Origin: an uncultured Holophagaceae bacterium
Lineage (GTDB): Bacteria; Acidobacteriota; Holophagae; Holophagales; Holophagaceae
Reading direction: 5' to 3'
DNA: 64,000 nt
NCBI GenBank assembly: GCA_903937385.1
Contig: CAIZZF010000008.1
Location: 186,001-250,000, forward strand
How positions within the stretch are numbered: position 1 is the first letter of the stretch; each line of letters starts with the position of its first letter. Under the pieces are notes generated by a model. That model was not told the DNA's origin and ran no database searches. It saw nothing but the letters and a program-made list of their open reading frames with translations. Below are positions 47,711 to 60,642 of this stretch, piece after piece. Both the position numbers and the translations under genes were made by a program.

Positions 47711-49264
47711 GTGAGACCCGAGCCCCCAGACGCCCACCCCGGCCTTGGCTGCCCCCCTGGATGGCGCCGAGGCCTGGACCTGAGGGCGTCCGTCCTGCTG
47801 GCCGCCTTGGTGCTCCTGCTGGCCGCCTGCGGCTCCTCGGGAAGCTCCCCCGCCCCATCCAGCGGTGGCACCGGGGAAACAGGCAGCACAGGCACGCCCG
47901 GCGTCTTTGCGGGCAGCATCCTGCTCGGCAGTCCCACCGCCACCTCCATCAAGGCCAATGTGCTCTCGGCCACCCAGAGCGGGACGGTCTACCTGGCCTG
48001 CGGTACGGTGAAGGGCACCTATCCGCTCAAGTCCGCGGCCGTGCCGCTCACGGCCGGAATGCCGGTGGAGCTGGCGCTCACAGGCCTCGCCGCCAACACC
48101 CAGCACTACTACCGGCTCTACTACCAGCCCGCCGGGGGCTCCTACGGCGCCACGGCCGAATACGCCTTCCACACGGCCCGCCCCGCCGGCAGCACCTTCA
48201 CCTTCACGGTCCAGGCCGACAGCCACATGGACGAGAACTCCAGCCAGGACATCTACCTCCGGTCCCTGGGCAACATCGCCGCCGCCGGGGCGGACTTCCA
48301 CGTGGACCTGGGGGACACCTTCATGTGCGAGAAGCACACGGGACCCCTCAGCGCCGTGGTCCAGTCTGCGCCGGACTACGCCACGGTGGCCGCACGCTAC
48401 ACCTACGAGCGGGGGAACTTCGGCACCCTGAGCGCGGGATCCCCCCTCTTCCTGGTGAACGGCAACCATGAGGGCGAGTCCGGCTGGTTCCTCAACGGCA
48501 CCGCCAGCAACCTGGCCATCTGGACCACCCAGGCCCGCCTCCGGTACTTCGTGAACCCGGTGCCCGACGGCTTCTACAGCGGGGATGGCGTGGACGAACC
48601 CTTCGTGGGCAAGCGGGCCACCTGGTACGCCTGGACCTGGGGCGACGCCCTCTTCGTGGTGCTGGATCCCTTCTGGAACACCGCGAAGCAGCCGGGCTCC
48701 GATGGCTGGAACCTCACCCTGGGCGACCGCCAGTACGCCTGGCTCCAGCAGACCCTCACTGGCAGCCCCGCGAAGTACAAGTTCATCTTCATCCACAACC
48801 TCGTGGGCGGCCTCGACGGCCAGATGCGCGGCGGCATCGAGGCGGCGCCCTTCTTCGAGTGGGGCGGCAAGAACGCCGACGGCACCGCAGGCTACGCCCT
48901 CAAGCGGCCCACCTGGACGGACCCCATCCACACCCTGCTGGTCCGCACGGGCGTCACCGCCGTCTTCCACGGCCACGACCACCTCTATGCGAAGCAGGAC
49001 CTGGACGGCATCGTCTATCAGGAGGTGCCCCAGCCCAGCGCCGTCAACAGCCAGAGCGGCGCCACCCTCGCGGCCGCCTACCACTACACGGCGGGCACCA
49101 TCCTCAGCAGCTCCGGCCACCTGCGGGTGACCGTGGCGCCGGACAAGGTGACGGCCCAGTACATCCGCACCTGGCTGCCCGCCGCCGAGACCGCCACGCT
49201 GAAGAACGGCTCCGTGGACCACACCTGGACCGTGGCCGCGCCCCTCAAGACCCGGACCCCATGA
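47711..49264 (+). CDS. Lipoprotein metallophosphoesterase, purple acid phosphatase-like
   Basis: A 517-residue predicted lipoprotein (LLAALVLLLAAC lipobox). An N-terminal fibronectin-type-III-like domain (about residues 70-155: ILLGSPTATSIKANVLS, TQHYYRLYYQPAG) precedes a calcineurin-type phosphoesterase domain. Its metal-binding motifs are DSH in VQADSHMDE, GDT in VDLGDTF, GNHE in LVNGNHEGE, a His in FIHNLVGG and GHDH in VFHGHDHLYA. This is the plan of purple acid phosphatases and alkaline phosphatase D-like enzymes, so a cell-surface phosphomonoesterase is likely. The start is a GTG with GGAG upstream. Its stop overlaps the next gene (ATGA), a paralogue. Confidence 0.88.
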   Translation: MRPEPPDAHPGLGCPPGWRRGLDLRASVLLAALVLLLAACGSSGSSPAPSSGGTGETGSTGTPGVFAGSILLGSPTATSIKANVLSATQSGTVYLACGTVKGTYPLKSAAVPLTAGMPVELALTGLAANTQHYYRLYYQPAGGSYGATAEYAFHTARPAGSTFTFTVQADSHMDENSSQDIYLRSLGNIAAAGADFHVDLGDTFMCEKHTGPLSAVVQSAPDYATVAARYTYERGNFGTLSAGSPLFLVNGNHEGESGWFLNGTASNLAIWTTQARLRYFVNPVPDGFYSGDGVDEPFVGKRATWYAWTWGDALFVVLDPFWNTAKQPGSDGWNLTLGDRQYAWLQQTLTGSPAKYKFIFIHNLVGGLDGQMRGGIEAAPFFEWGGKNADGTAGYALKRPTWTDPIHTLLVRTGVTAVFHGHDHLYAKQDLDGIVYQEVPQPSAVNSQSGATLAAAYHYTAGTILSSSGHLRVTVAPDKVTAQYIRTWLPAAETATLKNGSVDHTWTVAAPLKTRTP

Positions 49265-50961
49265 AGGTAGCCCGCGACCTCCCTCCGCTGCTGCTGCCAG
49301 CGCTGCTTGCCGGTGTCCTGGTGATCCTGGCCTGCCAGTCCGCCGGGGGCTCCGCACCCGCCGCTGCCACGGCCAGCGCTCCGGTGGCGGCCTTCCCCGC
49401 CCCCTCGGGCAGCCCCGTGGTGGGCCTGTCCCTGGCCTTCACGGACGCCAGCACCGGCGGTCCCACCGCCTGGACCTGGAGCTTCGGAGACGGCGGCACC
49501 AGCACCCTGCAGAACCCCACCCACGCCTACCTGGTGGCGGGCACCTTCACGGTGACCCTGCGGGCCACCAACACCGCCGGGGCCACCACCGCCAGCCGCT
49601 CCCTCACGGTGGGAGCGGGCGCCGCTGGCGCTGCCTTCAGGGGCAACGTCGTGCTGGGCAGCCCCACGGCTACCTCCATCCTGGTCAACGTCTTCTCGCC
49701 GGACCAGGGCGGCACGATCTACCTGATCTACGGCACGGCATCGGGCACCACCACCCGGCAGAGCCCCGCCGCGACCCTGGTGGCCGGCACACCTTTGGAG
49801 ATCAGCCTGGACGGCCTCAGCCCGGACACCCAGTACACCTACCGCCTCTGCTACCAGGTCGGCACCGCCAGCGCCTCCGTGGGCGAGGAGTGCACCTTCC
49901 ACACGGCCCGCCCCGCAGGCAGCACCTTCACCTTCTGCCTCCAGGGCGACAGCCACCCGGAGCGGCTCAAGACCCAGTTCGATGCGGCCCTCTACCAGCG
50001 CACCCTCCAGACCGCCGCCGCAGACCGGCCGGACTTCTACCTGCTCCTGGGCGACGACTTCAGCGTGGACACGCTGGATCCCGCCACCGTCAACGCCGCC
50101 CTGGTGACGGAGCGCTACACCCTGCAGCGACCCTACCTCGGGATCGTCGGCCGCTCGGCCCCGGTGTTCCTGGTGAACGGCAACCACGAGCAGGCGGCGC
50201 GGTATCTGCTGGACGGCACGCCCAACAATGTCGCGGTGTGGGCCCAGACCGCCCGGAACCGCCACTACTCCCAGCCGGCGCCCGACAGCTTCTATTCCGG
50301 CAACACCGAGGTGGTGCCCAACATCGGCCTGCTGCGCAACACCTTCGCCTGGACCTGGGGCGAGGCGCTGTTCGTGGTGATCGATCCCTACTGGGGCTCA
50401 CCGGTCTGCGTGGACGACCCCTTCTTCGGCGGCGCCAAGCGCAGCAACCTCTGGGACATCACCCACGGGGACGCCCAGTACCAGTGGCTCAAGGCCACCC
50501 TGGAGCAGAGCCGCGCCAAGTACAAGTTCGTCTTCGCGCACCACGTGATGGGCACCCAGCGCGGCGGCATCGAGGTGGCGGGCCTCTACGAGTGGGGCGG
50601 CAGCAGTGCCAACGGCAGCTGGGGCTTCACCGCCAACCGGCCCACCTGGGCCTCCCCCATCCACCAGCTCATGGCCGCCAACAAGGTCACCATCTTCTTC
50701 CAGGGCCACGACCACATCTGGGTGCGCCAGCAGCTGGACGGCGTCACCTACCAGACGCTCTCGGAGCCGGCCGATCCCAACTACTCACTCTTCAACTCGG
50801 ACGCCTACCTCAGCGGCGACAAGCTCCCCAACACCGGCTACACCCGGGTCAGCGTGGCCCCCACCGGCGTGAAGGTGGACTACGTCCGCACCTGGCTCCC
50901 CGCCGATGAAGGCCCCGGCAAGGTCAGCGGCAGCGTGGCGTTCAGCTACACGATCCCCTAG
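49261..50961 (+). CDS. Lipoprotein with PKD domain and purple-acid-phosphatase-like domain
   Basis: A 566-residue lipoprotein (LLPALLAGVLVILAC). A PKD domain at about residues 40-118 (FTDASTGGPTAWTWSFGDGG, PTHAYLVAGTFTVTL) is followed by a fibronectin-III-like domain (VVLGSPTATSILVNVFS) and a phosphoesterase domain with LQGDSHPE, LLLGDDFS, LVNGNHEQ, FAHHVMG and FQGHDHIW. It is clearly a tandem paralogue of the gene before it, plus the PKD module, and is coupled to it by an ATGA overlap. The PKD unit is of the same type as in the arylsulfotransferase genes further right, which links the two gene groups. The 137 bp after the stop hold small dyads but no gene. Confidence 0.9.
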   Translation: MKVARDLPPLLLPALLAGVLVILACQSAGGSAPAAATASAPVAAFPAPSGSPVVGLSLAFTDASTGGPTAWTWSFGDGGTSTLQNPTHAYLVAGTFTVTLRATNTAGATTASRSLTVGAGAAGAAFRGNVVLGSPTATSILVNVFSPDQGGTIYLIYGTASGTTTRQSPAATLVAGTPLEISLDGLSPDTQYTYRLCYQVGTASASVGEECTFHTARPAGSTFTFCLQGDSHPERLKTQFDAALYQRTLQTAAADRPDFYLLLGDDFSVDTLDPATVNAALVTERYTLQRPYLGIVGRSAPVFLVNGNHEQAARYLLDGTPNNVAVWAQTARNRHYSQPAPDSFYSGNTEVVPNIGLLRNTFAWTWGEALFVVIDPYWGSPVCVDDPFFGGAKRSNLWDITHGDAQYQWLKATLEQSRAKYKFVFAHHVMGTQRGGIEVAGLYEWGGSSANGSWGFTANRPTWASPIHQLMAANKVTIFFQGHDHIWVRQQLDGVTYQTLSEPADPNYSLFNSDAYLSGDKLPNTGYTRVSVAPTGVKVDYVRTWLPADEGPGKVSGSVAFSYTIP

Positions 50962-51098
50962 CTCAAGTGCTTTTGACGGGGGTCAAAGGGATGGACGGGG
51001 ATCACTGAACTCCAGTTTGGAGCTGGGGAGCTGACCGCCGGAACTCACCCTCCCGCCGCGCGCAGACGATGAAAAGGACCACCACCCTCGGAGGTCCT

Positions 51099-51137
51099 AT
51101 GAACATGCGCCATCTCCTCGTCCCGGCCCTGCTCTAG
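51099..51137 (+). pseudogene. Interrupted gene start (12 codons)
   Basis: A strong ribosome-binding site (GGAGGT, 51090-51095) precedes ATG AAC ATG, which encodes MNMRHLLVPALL and then hits TAG. The peptide looks like the start of a signal sequence, similar in style to the neighbouring lipoproteins (LLLPALLAG). The DNA changes composition immediately after the TAG. This fits a surface-protein gene cut by insertion or deletion at about 51135; its missing 3' part is not seen in the window. Confidence 0.5.
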
Positions 51138-52754
51138 GTTTATTCGGCTTTGCATTGAAAGAAAAGGGATATGGAACACGCATTTGACGCTCGTTTTGGC
51201 CAACAGTTATGTGATTCGATCGCAAGAGAGCTTGGCTTTGTCTGCAGTTTCATGGGGATTGGCGGCGTCATTGTCGCATCCAGTGCGCGGGAAAGAATCG
51301 GGAAAGTCCATGCCATTGCCGCCCGTATCATGGCCGGTGAGATGAGCCAAAAGGCTGTCACGGCAGAGGAGGCCGCCCGCTCAAAGGACGTCAGGGAAGG
51401 CCTCAATATCGCCATTGACCTCGACGGTGTCCGGCTCGCCAATTTCGCCATTGCCGGCGCGTTGGCCAAGGTTGAACCACTGGCTCACGTCATGAGCCAA
51501 TTCGTCATTCTGGTGATGCGGGTTCAGTTCGCCGACAAGGCTCGGCTGGCCCATGTCGCAGCGCAGGTGGATCGGGCCGACCAGGCAGTCACCACGGCCT
51601 TTTCCGCTGCAGAGGGCGGCGAAGCGGCTGTCACTGCCCTGATGGATGCAACCAGCCGCATCAGCTTGTTCATCGAGCAGATTCGGAGTGTTGCGCGGAT
51701 GACCAATATGCTTTCCCTGTATGCCAGGATCGAAGCCGCGTGTGTCGGTGATGCCGGCCAGGGTTTTGCGGTCGTTGCGACTGAAGTCAAGAGCTTGTCA
51801 AACAGATCGGCCAATAGCACGGAGGAGATCACGAGGCAGGTCGGACAGGTTCAGGTGGCCGCCAAGGGGGTCATCGGCTCCTTTTCCGCCGTGTCAAAGT
51901 CGGTCGGCTTCCTGAAGTCTTCCATTGCCCAAATCGCAACGACCATGGCGACGGCAGAAACCCTTGAGAACAGCGCGGCAACGGCGATCGCATTCGATCC
52001 TGCCTTTGGTCAGGAACTGTGCGACATGGTCGCCGGACGACTTGGCTACGTTTGTTCCTTCATGGGAAAGGGTGGCCTCATTGTGGCGTCCAGCGCTCGG
52101 GAGCGGATCGGCAACATCCACGCTGTTGCCGCCAGCATCATGGCGGGGAAAATCGACGAACGCGCTGTGACGGCCGAAGAAGCCGCGACCTCGGAGGGAA
52201 TGCGGGAAGGCTACAGCGTCGGCATTGACCTTGGAGGCGTACGGATGGTTAATTTCGGGATCGGGGGGCCCCTGGCAGAAGTCACACCGCTGGCGCGGGT
52301 GATCAGCCGATTTGTAACCTCAGTGCTGGGGTCCCGGAGTGCCGATTCCATCCGGAATCACTGGGTCTCCCAGCAGATCGAGACAACCACCCAATTCGCT
52401 TCGGATGCGGAGAGGGACGCAAAGGGCGCCATCGACACGGTCGGGCTGTTGACCGAAGCGATCAGCCAGATCGGACGCATTACGGGCCAGATCCGCGACA
52501 TCGCAGAACAGACCAACCTCCTGGCGTTGAATGCCACCATCGAGGCCTCCCGTGCCGGCGCCGCTGGCAGGGGGTTCGCAGTGGTGGCGAATGAAGTGAA
52601 GACCCTCTCCAAGCAGGCGGGGGAAGCCACCTTCGACATCCATCGCCAGATCAGCATGATTGAGGGTGAAACCCGCAAGGTGCACGAAGCCATCTCGGCC
52701 GTATCCCGGTCGGTCCACGAGATCACCACCCAGGTTGCGAAGATGGCCGCGTAG
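51138..52754. mobile_element. Probable horizontally acquired segment
   Basis: From about 51138 the sequence has clearly lower GC and uses codons rare in the neighbours (for example AGA, ATT, GCA, TCA, TTT). It holds a single gene for a chemoreceptor with its own AT-rich promoter-like upstream stretch. The left edge follows directly on the interrupted gene start at 51099-51137. No transposase, integrase, terminal repeat or target duplication is visible, so the transfer mechanism is unknown. The right edge lies somewhere between 52754 and 52805. Confidence 0.45.
51171..52754 (+). CDS. Soluble chemoreceptor with two duplicated sensor-signalling units
   Basis: A 527-residue methyl-accepting chemotaxis-type protein without signal peptide or membrane segment, so cytoplasmic. 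It consists of two related halves. Residues 1-125 and about 265-390 are sensor domains with the shared pattern [25 protein letters not shown] and VTAEEAA, reminiscent of the sugar-diacid recognition domain of CdaR. Each is followed by an MCP signalling hairpin. The second is canonical ([37 protein letters not shown]); the first is shorter and altered ([34 protein letters not shown]). The ATG follows AAGGGA. No che genes are near. Composition suggests transfer, perhaps from an alphaproteobacterium. Confidence 0.85.
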
Positions 52755-52805
52755 CCGGGTCATTCGCCCCCTGGGGCTTTGGCAGCCAGATGGGCTCAGA
52801 AGGAC

Positions 52806-53534
52806 TTACTCCAGCCCCAGCCGCTCGCGGAGCTTGGGGGTGGCGCCGCGGCTGGCCTCGAGCTCCACGCCGCCGGTCATGCGCACCATGACCCGGGCGC
52901 CGCCGCCGGAGGAGCGGAGGCCCAGCACCGCTTCGGGGCGGATGAGCAGGTGGCGGTGGATGCGCAGCAGGCCCGCGTCCGGAAAGAAGGCCTCCACCTC
53001 GCCCAGGGTCTTCCACTTGGTGCGGAAGCGGTCCCCGGCAAAGGCCCACACCACCTGTTCCTCCACCTCGAAGAAGGCGGTCTTGGCCAGGTCCAGGAAG
53101 AGCATGCCGCCCCCGGCGGTGACGGGGTAGCGCGTGGCGCGGGGGCCCTTCTCGGGCTCGGTGTTCTCCTCGCGGCCCAGGTGCCGACGGATGCGCGCCA
53201 GGGCCTTCACCAGCCGGGGCGTGGTCACGGGCTTCAGCAGGAAGTCCACGGCCTCCAGGTCGAAGGCCTCCACCGCGTGCTCCGCAAAGGCCGTTACGAA
53301 GACCACGGGCACTTTCTCGGGCAGGGAGGCGCGCAGGGCGAGGCCGTCCAGACCCGGCATCTGGATGTCCAGGAAGAGCCCGTCCACCGCGGGGGCGGAC
53401 CGCATCCACTCCTCCATCTCCAGGCCGTTGCTGAAGGTCGCCACCACCTCGCAGCCGCAGTCCTCCAGCAGCCGGGCCAGGCGCTTCTGATTCAAGGGCT
53501 CATCCTCGGCGATGGCCACCCGCAGCGGAGTCAT
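52806..53534 (-). CDS. LytTR-family response regulator
   Basis: A 242-residue regulator: receiver domain with Asp56 (GLFLDIQMPGLDG), conserved Lys in DFLLKPV, and a C-terminal LytTR DNA-binding domain (FFEVEEQVVWAFAGDRFRTKWKTLGEVEAFF, LRIHRHLLIRPEAVLGL). LytTR regulators typically control surface polysaccharides, autolysins or secreted factors. Its start overlaps the sensor stop by 4 bp (ATGA). It is the last gene of the minus-strand series that begins with the arylsulfotransferase genes. Confidence 0.95.
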   Translation of the reverse strand: MTPLRVAIAEDEPLNQKRLARLLEDCGCEVVATFSNGLEMEEWMRSAPAVDGLFLDIQMPGLDGLALRASLPEKVPVVFVTAFAEHAVEAFDLEAVDFLLKPVTTPRLVKALARIRRHLGREENTEPEKGPRATRYPVTAGGGMLFLDLAKTAFFEVEEQVVWAFAGDRFRTKWKTLGEVEAFFPDAGLLRIHRHLLIRPEAVLGLRSSGGGARVMVRMTGGVELEASRGATPKLRERLGLE

Positions 53535-56712: not shown

Positions 56713-59700
56713 TCAGTGCCCACTGAAGGCTGAGTCGCTGTAGGCATAGCGCCGGGCCCGGTGGACGGCATTGGTCATGGGGAGGCGGTCACCCAGCGCG
56801 GTCTTGGCGCCGCTGGCGGTGATGGGGTTGATGTACTCCCAGACCACCTCTCCGGTCGAGGTGACTTCCATCAGATAGCCGGTGGTGGTGGCGCAGATCA
56901 GCGTGTTGCCGTTCGGGAGGCGCTGGGCGCTGCCTCCGAACTGACTGAAGAGGGTCAGGTTGCCCACAGAACCATACTTCCACGCCACCTGCTTGGACAG
57001 GAGCTGATTGGCCTTCATGGAGTCCTTGTCAAAGGTCCAGGTCGTATAGCCGGCGCTAGGCGGGTCGATGTAAGTGGGGCCCGCGATGCCAGCGGCGTTC
57101 ATGTGGGGGTTGATCTCGAACACGTAGGACTGGGGCGTGCGCTGGTAGAGGTACTGGTTGTTGTTGAAGAGCAGCAGGTTCCCGGCCCCAGAGAGACCAC
57201 TGGCGATCCAGGTCACATCACTGCTGCCGCCGATCTGCTTGTTCCCCGAGGTGGCGGTCTCCCAGTTCGTTCCCACCGAAGGCGGATTCCCCTGGCTGTA
57301 GCGGGCCGGGTCGCCGAAGCGGTAGAGGAAGTCGCCCGCGGTGGTGGCCGCCAGGCTGATGCTGCCCGTGGGATTCCCGGAGAGGAACGTGGCGCCGTGG
57401 TCGATGAGGTAGCACTCACCCTGCCGCGAGTTGACCACAATCTGATCCAGCGTCGAGTTGAAGTCGAGGGAGTTGCAGTCCAGCCAGTTGCTGCGCACCG
57501 GCCGCCCGGGCAGGTTGAGGTTGATCTTCCCGGGATAGTCGGCGATGGTCTTGCCCCCGGCCACAGCGTTCGCCTTGCTGGCGTCGACGCTCTGGATGGC
57601 GTGGTCCCAGAAGGACCACTCCCAGACAATGGTTCCGCTCATGTCCACTTCCACGAGGGTGTCCACCTGGGCACCGTCGAAGGGAGCATCGGCCGGATCA
57701 CAGCCGGCGGCCAGACACTGGGCCGAGGTAAGGTCCTTGTTCGCCAGGTAGAGGGTGGCGTAGGCGTTCAGCTTGGGATCGAAGATGCGCGCGAAGGCCC
57801 CGTGGGGGTGGTAGGAGCTGCGGGCCTCGGTGTACTGCCAGACGGTGTTGCCGTTCCAGTCGACCTCCTTGAGGCCCGTCGGGCCACTGGCGCCCATACT
57901 CCAGTCCAGCACATTGCCGTTCGCCAGGAGCCGGGGATCAGTCCCGGTAGGCCAGGTGTGGACCACGCGACCGTCCATGTCGATCAGCCGGGAAGTCCCC
58001 GCGGCATCCAGGAACGTATAGCCGCTGTAGGCAGCGCTGGTGTCCCAGGACTGGGTGCCCGTGGAGCGCTGGAAGGCCTGATAGTCGCTGGTGCCGGCGT
58101 AGGGATTTTCGACGCTGGTGCGCCCGGCGATGGTGGCGCCCGGGGTGAGGGTGCGTCCGGCCAGAGCGGGATGGGTCGCCTTGTATCGGAAGGCACGGAA
58201 GATCGAGTTGACCATGGGGAGGCGGTCACCCAGCACCTTGTAGACAGTGGGCCCGGACAGGGGAACGATGTATTCCCAGACAGTCCCGCCGGCTGGTGTC
58301 ACTTCCAGAATGTGGCCTTCGGTGTCGGCACAGACCAGGGTGTTCCCATTGGGTAGACGCTGGGCGCTGCAGCCGATGGTGCTGAACAGGGTCTGGCTGT
58401 CCAGCGAGTAGAAGTTCCCCACGACCTGCTTGGAGACCTGCCGAGGGCTGTTGTCTGTCACCGCGGGCCGGGTGAGCGTGACATAGCCAGCGTCGGGCGG
58501 ATTCACGTACTTCCCCGTGTCAATGCCGCTGGCATCAAGGTAGGGGTTGATCTCCATCACGTAGGACTGGGCGGCGTGTTCGGAGAGGTATTCGGCATTG
58601 TTGAAGACGAGGAAGTGCCCGGCGCCGCTAAGGCCTTCCTGCATCCACTGGATGTCGTGCGCGCCCCCTAGCTGCTTGTGGCCGGTAGTGGAAAGGGTCC
58701 AGTCCTCCAGGATGGAGGGCTTGGTGCCCTGGTCGTAGCGGGCGGGGTCCCCGAAGCGGTAGAGGAAGTCCCCCGCGCTGGTGGCCGCCAGAGAGATGCT
58801 GCCAGTCGGGTTCCCCGAGAGGAAGGTGTTGCCATGGTCGATGACATAGAACTCGCCTTGCACGGAGTTGATGACGATCTGGTCGAGCGACTGGTTGTAG
58901 TCCAGTGAGTTGCAGTGCAGCCAGTCGGCCTTCAGGTTGTGCCCCGCGAGGTTGAGGTTCAGCTTGTTGGGGTAGTCGGCAATGGTCTTGCCGCTGCCGA
59001 CGTAGTTCGACTTGGTGGAGGCAACATCCTGCACGAGGTGATCGAAGAAGCACCACTCCCACACGATGGTGCCGCTGGCATCCACCTCCACGATGGCGTC
59101 CAGCTGGGCGCCTGTCGAGGGCGCTCGGGTGGGGTCCGCCCCCGCTTCGATGAGCTGGGCGTAGGTGAAGTCCTTGTTGGCGATGATCAGGGTTGTGTAG
59201 GCCTTGAGCTTGGGATTGTAGATGCGGGTGAAGTCGTGGTGGGGATGATAGGTGGCGCGGGACTCGACGTAGGACCAGACCGTCAACCCGTTCCAGTCAA
59301 CTTCCTTGAAGGTCCCGAAGCCACTGGGATCATTGGTCCCGGCATCCAGCACATTGCCATCGGCCAGCAGGTGCGGGTTGGTACCCACGGGCCAGATGTG
59401 GACGACCCTGCCCTGCATGTCGAGCAGGTAGGTCTTGCCACCCGCCCCGAAGAACGTGTAGCCCTCCTCGGCCTTGGCGGAGTCCCAATACTGCAGCTCC
59501 GTGGGTCGCTCGAGCGCGACATGGCTGGTGGTTGACGACGCACTCACGGTGAGGCTGTGGGTGATGGGGGTGCTGGCGCCCGCGGCGTTGCTGGCCATCA
59601 GCGTGACGGTGTAGGCGCCCGCTGTGGTGTAGGCGTGGGTGGGACTCTGCGCCGTGCTGGTGGAGCCGTCGCCGAAGGTCCAGGCCCAGCTGGTGGGCGT

Positions 59701-60642
59701 GCCCGTGGAGGCATCCGTGAAGGTGACCGTCTGGGCTGTCGTGGGGGATGTCGGGCTGAAGCTGAAGGCGGCGGTGGGGGCCGTGGCCGCAGCGGTCACG
59801 GTGACGCTGTGGGTGACGGGGGCCCCGGCACCCGCGACATTGCGGGCCGTCAGCGTGACAGGGTAGGTGCCAGCCGTGGTGTAGGCGTGGGCGGGGCTCT
59901 GCGCCGTGCTGGTGGAACCGTCGCCGAAGGTCCAGGACCAGCTGGTCGGCGTGCCGGCCGAGGCATCCGTGAAGGTGACCGTCTGGGCTGTCGTGGGGGA
60001 TGTCGGGCTGAAGCTGAAGGCGGCGGTGGGGGCCGTGGCAGCGGCGGTTACAGTGACGCTGTGGGTGACAGGGGTGCTGGCGCCCGCGGCGTTGCTGGCC
60101 GTCAGTGTGACGGTGTAGGTGCCTGCCGTGCTGTAGGCGTGGGTGGGACTCTGTGCGGTGCTGGTGCCGCCGTCGCCAAAGGTCCAGGCCCAGCTGGTGG
60201 GCGTGCCCACGGAGGCGTCCGCGAAGGTGACCGTCTGGGCTGTCGTGGGGGCGGTCGGGCTGAAGCTGAAGGCCGCCGTGGGAACCACCACCGCCTGGCT
60301 CACCGTGAGGCTCTTGCTCAGGGTTCCGTTACCGCCGGCATTGGTGACCGTTAGCGCCACGGTGTAGGTGCCGGCCACGGTGTAGGCGTGGGTGGGACTC
60401 TGCACGGTGCTGGTGCCACCGTCACCAAAGGTCCAGGACCAACCCGTGGGAATGCCGGTAGAGGCGTCCGTGAAGGTGACCGTCTGCGCGGTGGCCGGGA
60501 CAGCAGGACTGAAGCTGAAGGCGGCGGTGGGGGCAGCTGTTACGGAAGGGGTGGGCGAGGAGCCACCCCCACCTCCGCAGCTCAGGCTGACGAGAAAAAC
60601 GAGCACCGCACCAATCATGTGAATGAGACGAACGATACGCAT
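56713..60642 (-). CDS. Lipoprotein with four PKD domains and two arylsulfotransferase domains
   Basis: A 1309-residue surface lipoprotein (LVFLVSLSC lipobox). Four PKD domains at about 38-116, 120-200, 204-284 and 288-368 are nearly identical in the last three. They are followed by two tandem arylsulfotransferase-type beta-propeller units (375-845 and 848-1309). Arylsulfotransferases move sulfate between phenolic esters without PAPS. Aligned by spacing to E. coli AssT (His252, His356, Arg374, His436), unit 1 keeps His469, His576 and His662 but has Val594 in place of Arg. Unit 2 keeps Arg1073 but has Gly948, Asp1055 and Ser1141 in place of the three His. Unit 1 may be partly active; unit 2 looks structural. 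The ATG follows CAGGAGC, 36 bp after the previous stop. Confidence 0.88.
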   Translation of the reverse strand: MRIVRLIHMIGAVLVFLVSLSCGGGGGSSPTPSVTAAPTAAFSFSPAVPATAQTVTFTDASTGIPTGWSWTFGDGGTSTVQSPTHAYTVAGTYTVALTVTNAGGNGTLSKSLTVSQAVVVPTAAFSFSPTAPTTAQTVTFADASVGTPTSWAWTFGDGGTSTAQSPTHAYSTAGTYTVTLTASNAAGASTPVTHSVTVTAAATAPTAAFSFSPTSPTTAQTVTFTDASAGTPTSWSWTFGDGSTSTAQSPAHAYTTAGTYPVTLTARNVAGAGAPVTHSVTVTAAATAPTAAFSFSPTSPTTAQTVTFTDASTGTPTSWAWTFGDGSTSTAQSPTHAYTTAGAYTVTLMASNAAGASTPITHSLTVSASSTTSHVALERPTELQYWDSAKAEEGYTFFGAGGKTYLLDMQGRVVHIWPVGTNPHLLADGNVLDAGTNDPSGFGTFKEVDWNGLTVWSYVESRATYHPHHDFTRIYNPKLKAYTTLIIANKDFTYAQLIEAGADPTRAPSTGAQLDAIVEVDASGTIVWEWCFFDHLVQDVASTKSNYVGSGKTIADYPNKLNLNLAGHNLKADWLHCNSLDYNQSLDQIVINSVQGEFYVIDHGNTFLSGNPTGSISLAATSAGDFLYRFGDPARYDQGTKPSILEDWTLSTTGHKQLGGAHDIQWMQEGLSGAGHFLVFNNAEYLSEHAAQSYVMEINPYLDASGIDTGKYVNPPDAGYVTLTRPAVTDNSPRQVSKQVVGNFYSLDSQTLFSTIGCSAQRLPNGNTLVCADTEGHILEVTPAGGTVWEYIVPLSGPTVYKVLGDRLPMVNSIFRAFRYKATHPALAGRTLTPGATIAGRTSVENPYAGTSDYQAFQRSTGTQSWDTSAAYSGYTFLDAAGTSRLIDMDGRVVHTWPTGTDPRLLANGNVLDWSMGASGPTGLKEVDWNGNTVWQYTEARSSYHPHGAFARIFDPKLNAYATLYLANKDLTSAQCLAAGCDPADAPFDGAQVDTLVEVDMSGTIVWEWSFWDHAIQSVDASKANAVAGGKTIADYPGKINLNLPGRPVRSNWLDCNSLDFNSTLDQIVVNSRQGECYLIDHGATFLSGNPTGSISLAATTAGDFLYRFGDPARYSQGNPPSVGTNWETATSGNKQIGGSSDVTWIASGLSGAGNLLLFNNNQYLYQRTPQSYVFEINPHMNAAGIAGPTYIDPPSAGYTTWTFDKDSMKANQLLSKQVAWKYGSVGNLTLFSQFGGSAQRLPNGNTLICATTTGYLMEVTSTGEVVWEYINPITASGAKTALGDRLPMTNAVHRARRYAYSDSAFSGH
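59539..60531 (-). repeat. Four tandem PKD-coding repeats, 252-bp period
   Basis: Units of 84 codons encode PTAAFSFSP, QTVTFTDAS, WTFGDG and HAYTTAGTY in the same order four times. Units 2 to 4 (about 59539-60290) are so alike at DNA level that recent duplication or gene conversion is likely, and their number could vary between strains. Confidence 0.85.

Follow-up and report, generated by a model that had tools for sequence, protein, structure and literature searches.

Chemoreceptors ordinarily form a four-helix bundle from two identical chains. Some of them carry a Diacid_rec sensor, from a Cache-clan family that is found mainly inside the cell and that has an MCP output in 30 of 1274 members according to Table 1 of PMC4822843. 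Among these receptors are single-copy forms encoded on Azospirillum plasmids, in which Diacid_rec is followed by MCPsignal with no further domain. Short direct repeats are known sites of RecA-independent deletion, for example in cases covered by PMC5426353, where one copy of the repeat is lost together with the intervening sequence.

Here, we describe a locus in an uncultured Holophagaceae bacterium, located in a stretch of 64,000 nucleotides (the window) from a draft genome of 30 contigs that is 97.8% complete. The locus contains a 12-codon stub and, behind it, a chemoreceptor gene of foreign composition. It is very probable that two separate events gave rise to this arrangement: the receptor was acquired behind an intact sCache_2 gene, and a deletion between repeats followed later in the lineage of the window. 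The proposed deletion would resemble those of PMC5426353 in the loss of one repeat copy and the intervening sequence, and would differ from them in being a natural scar rather than a measured event, with a repeat of 12 bases of which one copy was imported. The receptor has the domain order of the Azospirillum forms, but the whole unit is doubled in one chain and one of its two tips is off consensus. A sensor gene lost to repeat deletion is nothing out of the ordinary; the greater interest of the locus lies in its double receptor.

The stub and its intact relatives

A preliminary description of the window had noted a ribosome-binding site, a start codon, 12 codons and a stop, and had taken them for the start of a surface-protein gene. 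All are present at 51090-51137 on the forward strand: GGAGGT at 51090-51095, ATG at 51099-51101, the 12 codons MNMRHLLVPALL and TAG at 51135-51137, the stub as a whole occupying 51099-51137. The same description had proposed a comparison with close relatives, and an uninterrupted gene was indeed found in four of them (G023, G003, G022 and G036), where the orthologous start opens a gene of 149-150 codons preceded by the same GGAGGT site (loci L010, L062, L063 and L064). Because of this orthologous start, the 12 codons are the remnant of a true gene, beyond what chance would give.

The intact gene of G023 (locus L010) has 149 codons, and its product starts MNMRTLLVPALLCLTTGLSAQ and matches sCache_2 (PF17200) at 67.7 bits against a gathering score of 25. 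The sensor proteins of G003, G022 and G036 are encoded at the same genomic place and are 90-95% identical to that of G023. The product of the lost gene is predicted to have been an exported single-Cache sensor protein, where the preliminary description had spoken of a surface protein. With other sCache_2 sensor proteins it shares a signal-peptide-like start and one sCache_2 domain, but it has no output domain and stands alone. The genome of the window encodes four stand-alone relatives of the sensor (40-52% identity) and one partial match inside a larger frame; neither an orthologue above 52% identity nor a 3′ remainder of the gene was found there. A promoter scan gave no candidate close to the stub.

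Arrangement of the locus in the genus

Two native neighbours mark the site. On the 5′ side (49318-50961 in the stretch compared, forward strand) Pfam identifies a gene with PKD and calcineurin-like phosphoesterase domains, which has orthologues in G003, G013, G022, G023 and G036. On the 3′ side (52806-53534, reverse strand) it identifies a LytTR response regulator, whose orthologues are in place in G003, G022, G023, G030 and G036. In G022 and G036 only the intact sensor gene lies between these markers, with about 12 bases from its stop codon to the response-regulator gene and no receptor, so that the site is empty. G023 has the sensor gene, 8-9 bases and the receptor gene in one contiguous piece. 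The order in G003 is sensor gene, 47-base spacer, IS1595-family element, receptor, TnpB-like gene and response regulator, on two contigs whose ends overlap exactly over 141 bases. The same response-regulator gene lies downstream of the receptor in the window, G023 and G003. In G030, where the contig ends inside the receptor, no sensor orthologue was found. Since G023 and G003 have the receptor downstream of an intact sensor gene, and G022 and G036 have an empty site, the receptor would have been placed behind the intact gene, and the stub of the window would have arisen later.

The first event, as reconstructed from this comparison, would have been the insertion of a foreign double Diacid_rec-MCP gene directly behind the native sCache_2 stop codon, between the sCache_2 gene and the convergent LytTR response-regulator gene. 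Flanking sequence would have come in with the gene, about 47 bases on its 5′ side and at most some 95 on its 3′ side. Set against the receptor carriers G003, G023 and G030 and against the two empty sites (G022, G036), the 3′ flank of the window (52755-52805, forward strand) is shortened and without target duplication. Duplications of this kind had been suggested as something to look for at the ends of the insert; none lies at the boundaries, and no transposon-type target duplication or terminal inverted repeats were found at the insert ends. The longest direct match there is 7 bases in the window (95th percentile of shuffled sequences, 8), and an 8-base match between the 5′ flank of G003 and the 3′ flank of G030 (95th percentile, 7) lies away from the boundaries.

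Two further observations concern the relatives. In G003, the IS1595-family transposase gene between the sensor and receptor genes is at L009:1061-2071, and the TnpB-like gene between the receptor and the response regulator, which has a Cas12f1-like TNB domain, is at L009:3785-5650. In G022 (L062:2283-2325), the sensor gene is separated from the response regulator by 12 bases that resemble the start of the receptor 3′ flank in G023 (TAGCCAGG); this likeness could mean either that the receptor has been lost precisely or that insertion took place right at the stop codon.

Foreign composition and origin of the receptor gene

GC content is about 0.67-0.70 before the receptor gene, 0.57-0.62 across it and about 0.70 again after 52750. 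The GC3 of the receptor is 0.714-0.715. Seven further chemoreceptor genes from this genome have values of 0.874-0.924, and the genes adjoining the receptor 0.88-0.95. This comparison is restricted to those seven chemoreceptors and the named neighbours; a window-wide ranking was discarded because the mechanical choice of frames took many antisense frames. The receptor lying below both groups, the shift is real, and the lower-GC, different codon style that the preliminary description had seen, with a return to local style after the gene, is borne out by GC and GC3 alike. It had also held that relatives of the same arrangement and composition would speak for an old, vertically inherited locus. 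A low GC3 is indeed common to the receptor orthologues (0.69-0.745), whereas the arrangement is not shared: in a DNA search, the full stub junction was found only in the genome of the window itself, one of 47 in the genus.

The receptor is present in 4 of the 47 genus genomes (3 of the 30 of high quality), which represent four species. A search of 60 genomes included 23 that lie outside the genus, and none of these 23 has it; the nearest named records with the receptor are Holophagaceae. Full-length homologues were found only in G073 (Nitrosomonadales, 57% identity) and G070 (Gallionellaceae, 54%), 2 of 158 genomes of one Gallionellaceae-type family, and a sample of the order gave a full-length relative in 1 of 300 genomes. 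GC3 values of 0.49 in G070 and 0.57 in G073, with identities of only 54-57%, argue that neither is the direct donor. The search for a donor group led to a family with homologues, and no direct donor was found in the genomes or plasmid records searched. Plasmids were considered as a source and rejected: 3101 records match, of which 3099 are below 60% identity, and coverage of 80% of the query is reached by a single record. Two top-ranking Azospirillum plasmid matches are single-copy receptors of 404-408 amino acids and were likewise set aside as donors. The unusual codon use of the receptor, together with the sites in Holophagaceae that lack it, argues for transfer into this family. By codon use, the restriction to 4 of the 47 genus genomes and the empty sites, the receptor is an acquired gene, as had been proposed from its composition, and the locus comparison has it gained before the deletion in the sensor gene.

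Timing of the acquisition is less clear-cut. There is a substantial possibility, a little short of an even chance, that the receptor moved between species of the genus after their split and was not gained once by the common ancestor of its carriers, a history compatible with the two events proposed here. Synonymous divergence, estimated by simple counts, is 0.158 between window and G003 for the receptor and 0.267, 0.421, 0.309 and 0.357 for four neighbouring genes, which suggests exchange within the genus after G003 split off. Between window and G023 the receptor value is 0.197, against 0.200-0.247 for the neighbours, and G022 is close yet lacks the receptor. A single gain is favoured by the insertion site and 3′ flank that the carriers have in common, and by the phosphoesterase tree, in which the three carriers included (G030 is not among them) group together to the exclusion of G022 (92/99). 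The rpoB tree leaves G022 and G003 unresolved, and rpoB and neighbour trees resolve these two poorly.

Probable deletion at a 12-base repeat

In the window, a single copy of the repeat CGGCCCTGCTCT (51124-51135, forward strand) stands between sensor-gene sequence on the left and spacer on the right, and the sequence at the junction is GTCCCGGCCCTGCTCTAGGTTTATTCG. The parents of this junction are found in relatives. A left copy within the Cache gene is exact at L010 9568 and has one mismatch at L064 1815; a right copy after the Cache stop is exact at L064 2247. This is the pattern of a deletion between short direct repeats, with the left parent in L010 and L064 and the right parent in L064. In G003, the left and right copies are 432 bases apart, and the spacer, which covers 47 bases after the sensor stop and starts GTCTCGGCCCTGCTCTACGTTTATTCC, aligns at 89% with the window (L064:2243-2289 against 51120-51166). 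According to the G003 alignment, what remains of this spacer, formerly between the Cache stop and the receptor start, is 51136-51170 (forward strand). Both copies occur together only in G003; the spacer of G023 is shorter and lacks the right repeat, and G030 breaks off inside the receptor. Because the left copy in G003 carries the mismatch, we infer an exact 12-base pair for the ancestor of the window. When queried with the window junction, G003 answers in two overlapping pieces, query positions 56-151 and 136-182, which are the two parents and overlap in the repeat. None of 300 shuffles of the spacer shared 12 bases with the sensor gene, the maximum being 10.

In the second event, confined to the lineage of the window, the copy of CGGCCCTGCTCT that spans codons 9-13 of sCache_2 would have recombined or slipped with the one in the imported spacer. 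One repeat copy and everything between the two, about 432 bases as measured in G003, would have been removed, so that the frame opened by the sCache_2 start now leads into the spacer and is closed immediately, with the upstream region and the ribosome-binding site left in place. The path was presumably one of slippage or annealing, independent of RecA, by analogy with known cases such as PMC5426353. As a likely consequence, one periplasmic sensor was lost, four stand-alone paralogues were left, and the receptor gene is now led by a 12-codon minigene, which may affect its expression.

That this minigene is instead a kept functional leader, or an upstream frame controlling translation of the receptor, is unlikely. 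In its favour, a strong ribosome-binding site and start codon survive, 33 bases separate the stop from the receptor start codon and no terminator-like site is reported between the two; yet the stub codons are the signal-peptide start of the intact gene, and since the minigene occurs in one genome only, no conservation supports such a role. It is still harder to credit an error in the draft assembly that hides an intact sensor gene: for all its 30 contigs, the junction lies far inside one of them, no orthologous copy was found elsewhere in the nearly complete genome, and assemblers work with words far longer than 12 bases. The preliminary reading that the incoming receptor itself cut the sensor gene or replaced its downstream part, suggested by a composition that changes directly after the stub and by the acquired receptor, is the least probable of all and is contradicted by G023 and G003, where the receptor stands behind an intact gene at the same site, with the window spacer matching the one after the Cache stop codon in G003 and no 3′ remainder of the gene found. 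Acquisition followed by repeat deletion makes the locus a clean stepwise example of how imported DNA can happen to carry a repeat through which an adjacent native gene is later deleted.

The double receptor

The receptor gene (51171-52754, forward strand) encodes one chain of 527 amino acids with the order Diacid_rec-MCP-Diacid_rec-MCP. Both families are matched in two stretches, Diacid_rec (PF05651) at 121.8 bits against a gathering score of 23.6 and MCPsignal (PF00015) at 142 bits against 34.6. Pfam found these two domains only, with no helix-turn-helix DNA-binding output of a CdaR-type sugar-diacid regulator. The halves are 49% identical over 253 residues. In a tree, the first halves from both phyla form one group and the second halves another (100/100), which places the doubling before the transfer. 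A search of open-licence papers gave no description of a double Diacid_rec-MCP receptor, or of any chemoreceptor with two MCP signalling domains.

Compared with PDB chains, homologues and the consensus of chemoreceptor tips, the second half keeps the conserved signalling tip and the first half departs from it. At the place of N381 of Tsr, five proteins from two phyla have Tyr or Thr in every first half (Tyr, with Thr in G070 and G073) and Asn in every second half. Two further tip residues of Tsr, E385 and R388, are named in passages of PMC8144572. The first half has Cys at the R388 place in the window and Thr in G070, and the second tips of G070 and G073 lack the glutamate equivalent to E385. 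The differing tips across the five proteins make unlike tips in one chain a lasting feature.

A structure model built from four sequences (mean pLDDT 77.2, pTM 0.60) has two long helical hairpins and two mixed domains; it supports a predicted arrangement of two sensor domains and two such hairpins, whose packing against each other the model leaves unsettled. In a structural search, no hit fell below E 0.001. Its best match, a model of the soluble Bacillus subtilis receptor YfmS (9a72), is weak (E 2.2e-03, TM 0.20/0.31), and most of the next-ranked matches are long coiled coils. YfmS resembles about one half of the receptor in overall shape and in its short signalling domain, but is a single unit of 286 residues.

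From its domains, the protein appears to be soluble and to act as a chemoreceptor for a small organic acid of the cytoplasm; PMC4822843 gives a mainly intracellular distribution for Diacid_rec within the Cache clan. Binding of CheW and CheA and control of the kinase are putative. The two Diacid_rec-MCP halves may, though this is rather doubtful, pack against each other as a four-helix bundle, a single-chain asymmetric pseudo-dimer with fixed unlike tips. If the receptor does work in this way, nature would supply a covalently fixed heterodimer suited to testing the number of signalling tips that a chemoreceptor dimer requires, an issue so far approached through engineered mixed dimers.

Neighbouring features

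Behind the phosphoesterase gene, the window has a perfect palindrome, TTTGACGGGGGTCAAA (50972-50987; TTTGAC and GTCAAA around GGGG), of which G022 has a degenerate form. The phosphoesterase gene is itself the second of two adjacent similar genes (47711-50961), the one with the PKD and calcineurin-like phosphoesterase domains, and relatives occur in only 7 of the 47 genus genomes. Further downstream, a large frame (56713-60642) shows, by eye, a repetition of PKD-like stretches as well as two similar C-terminal halves.
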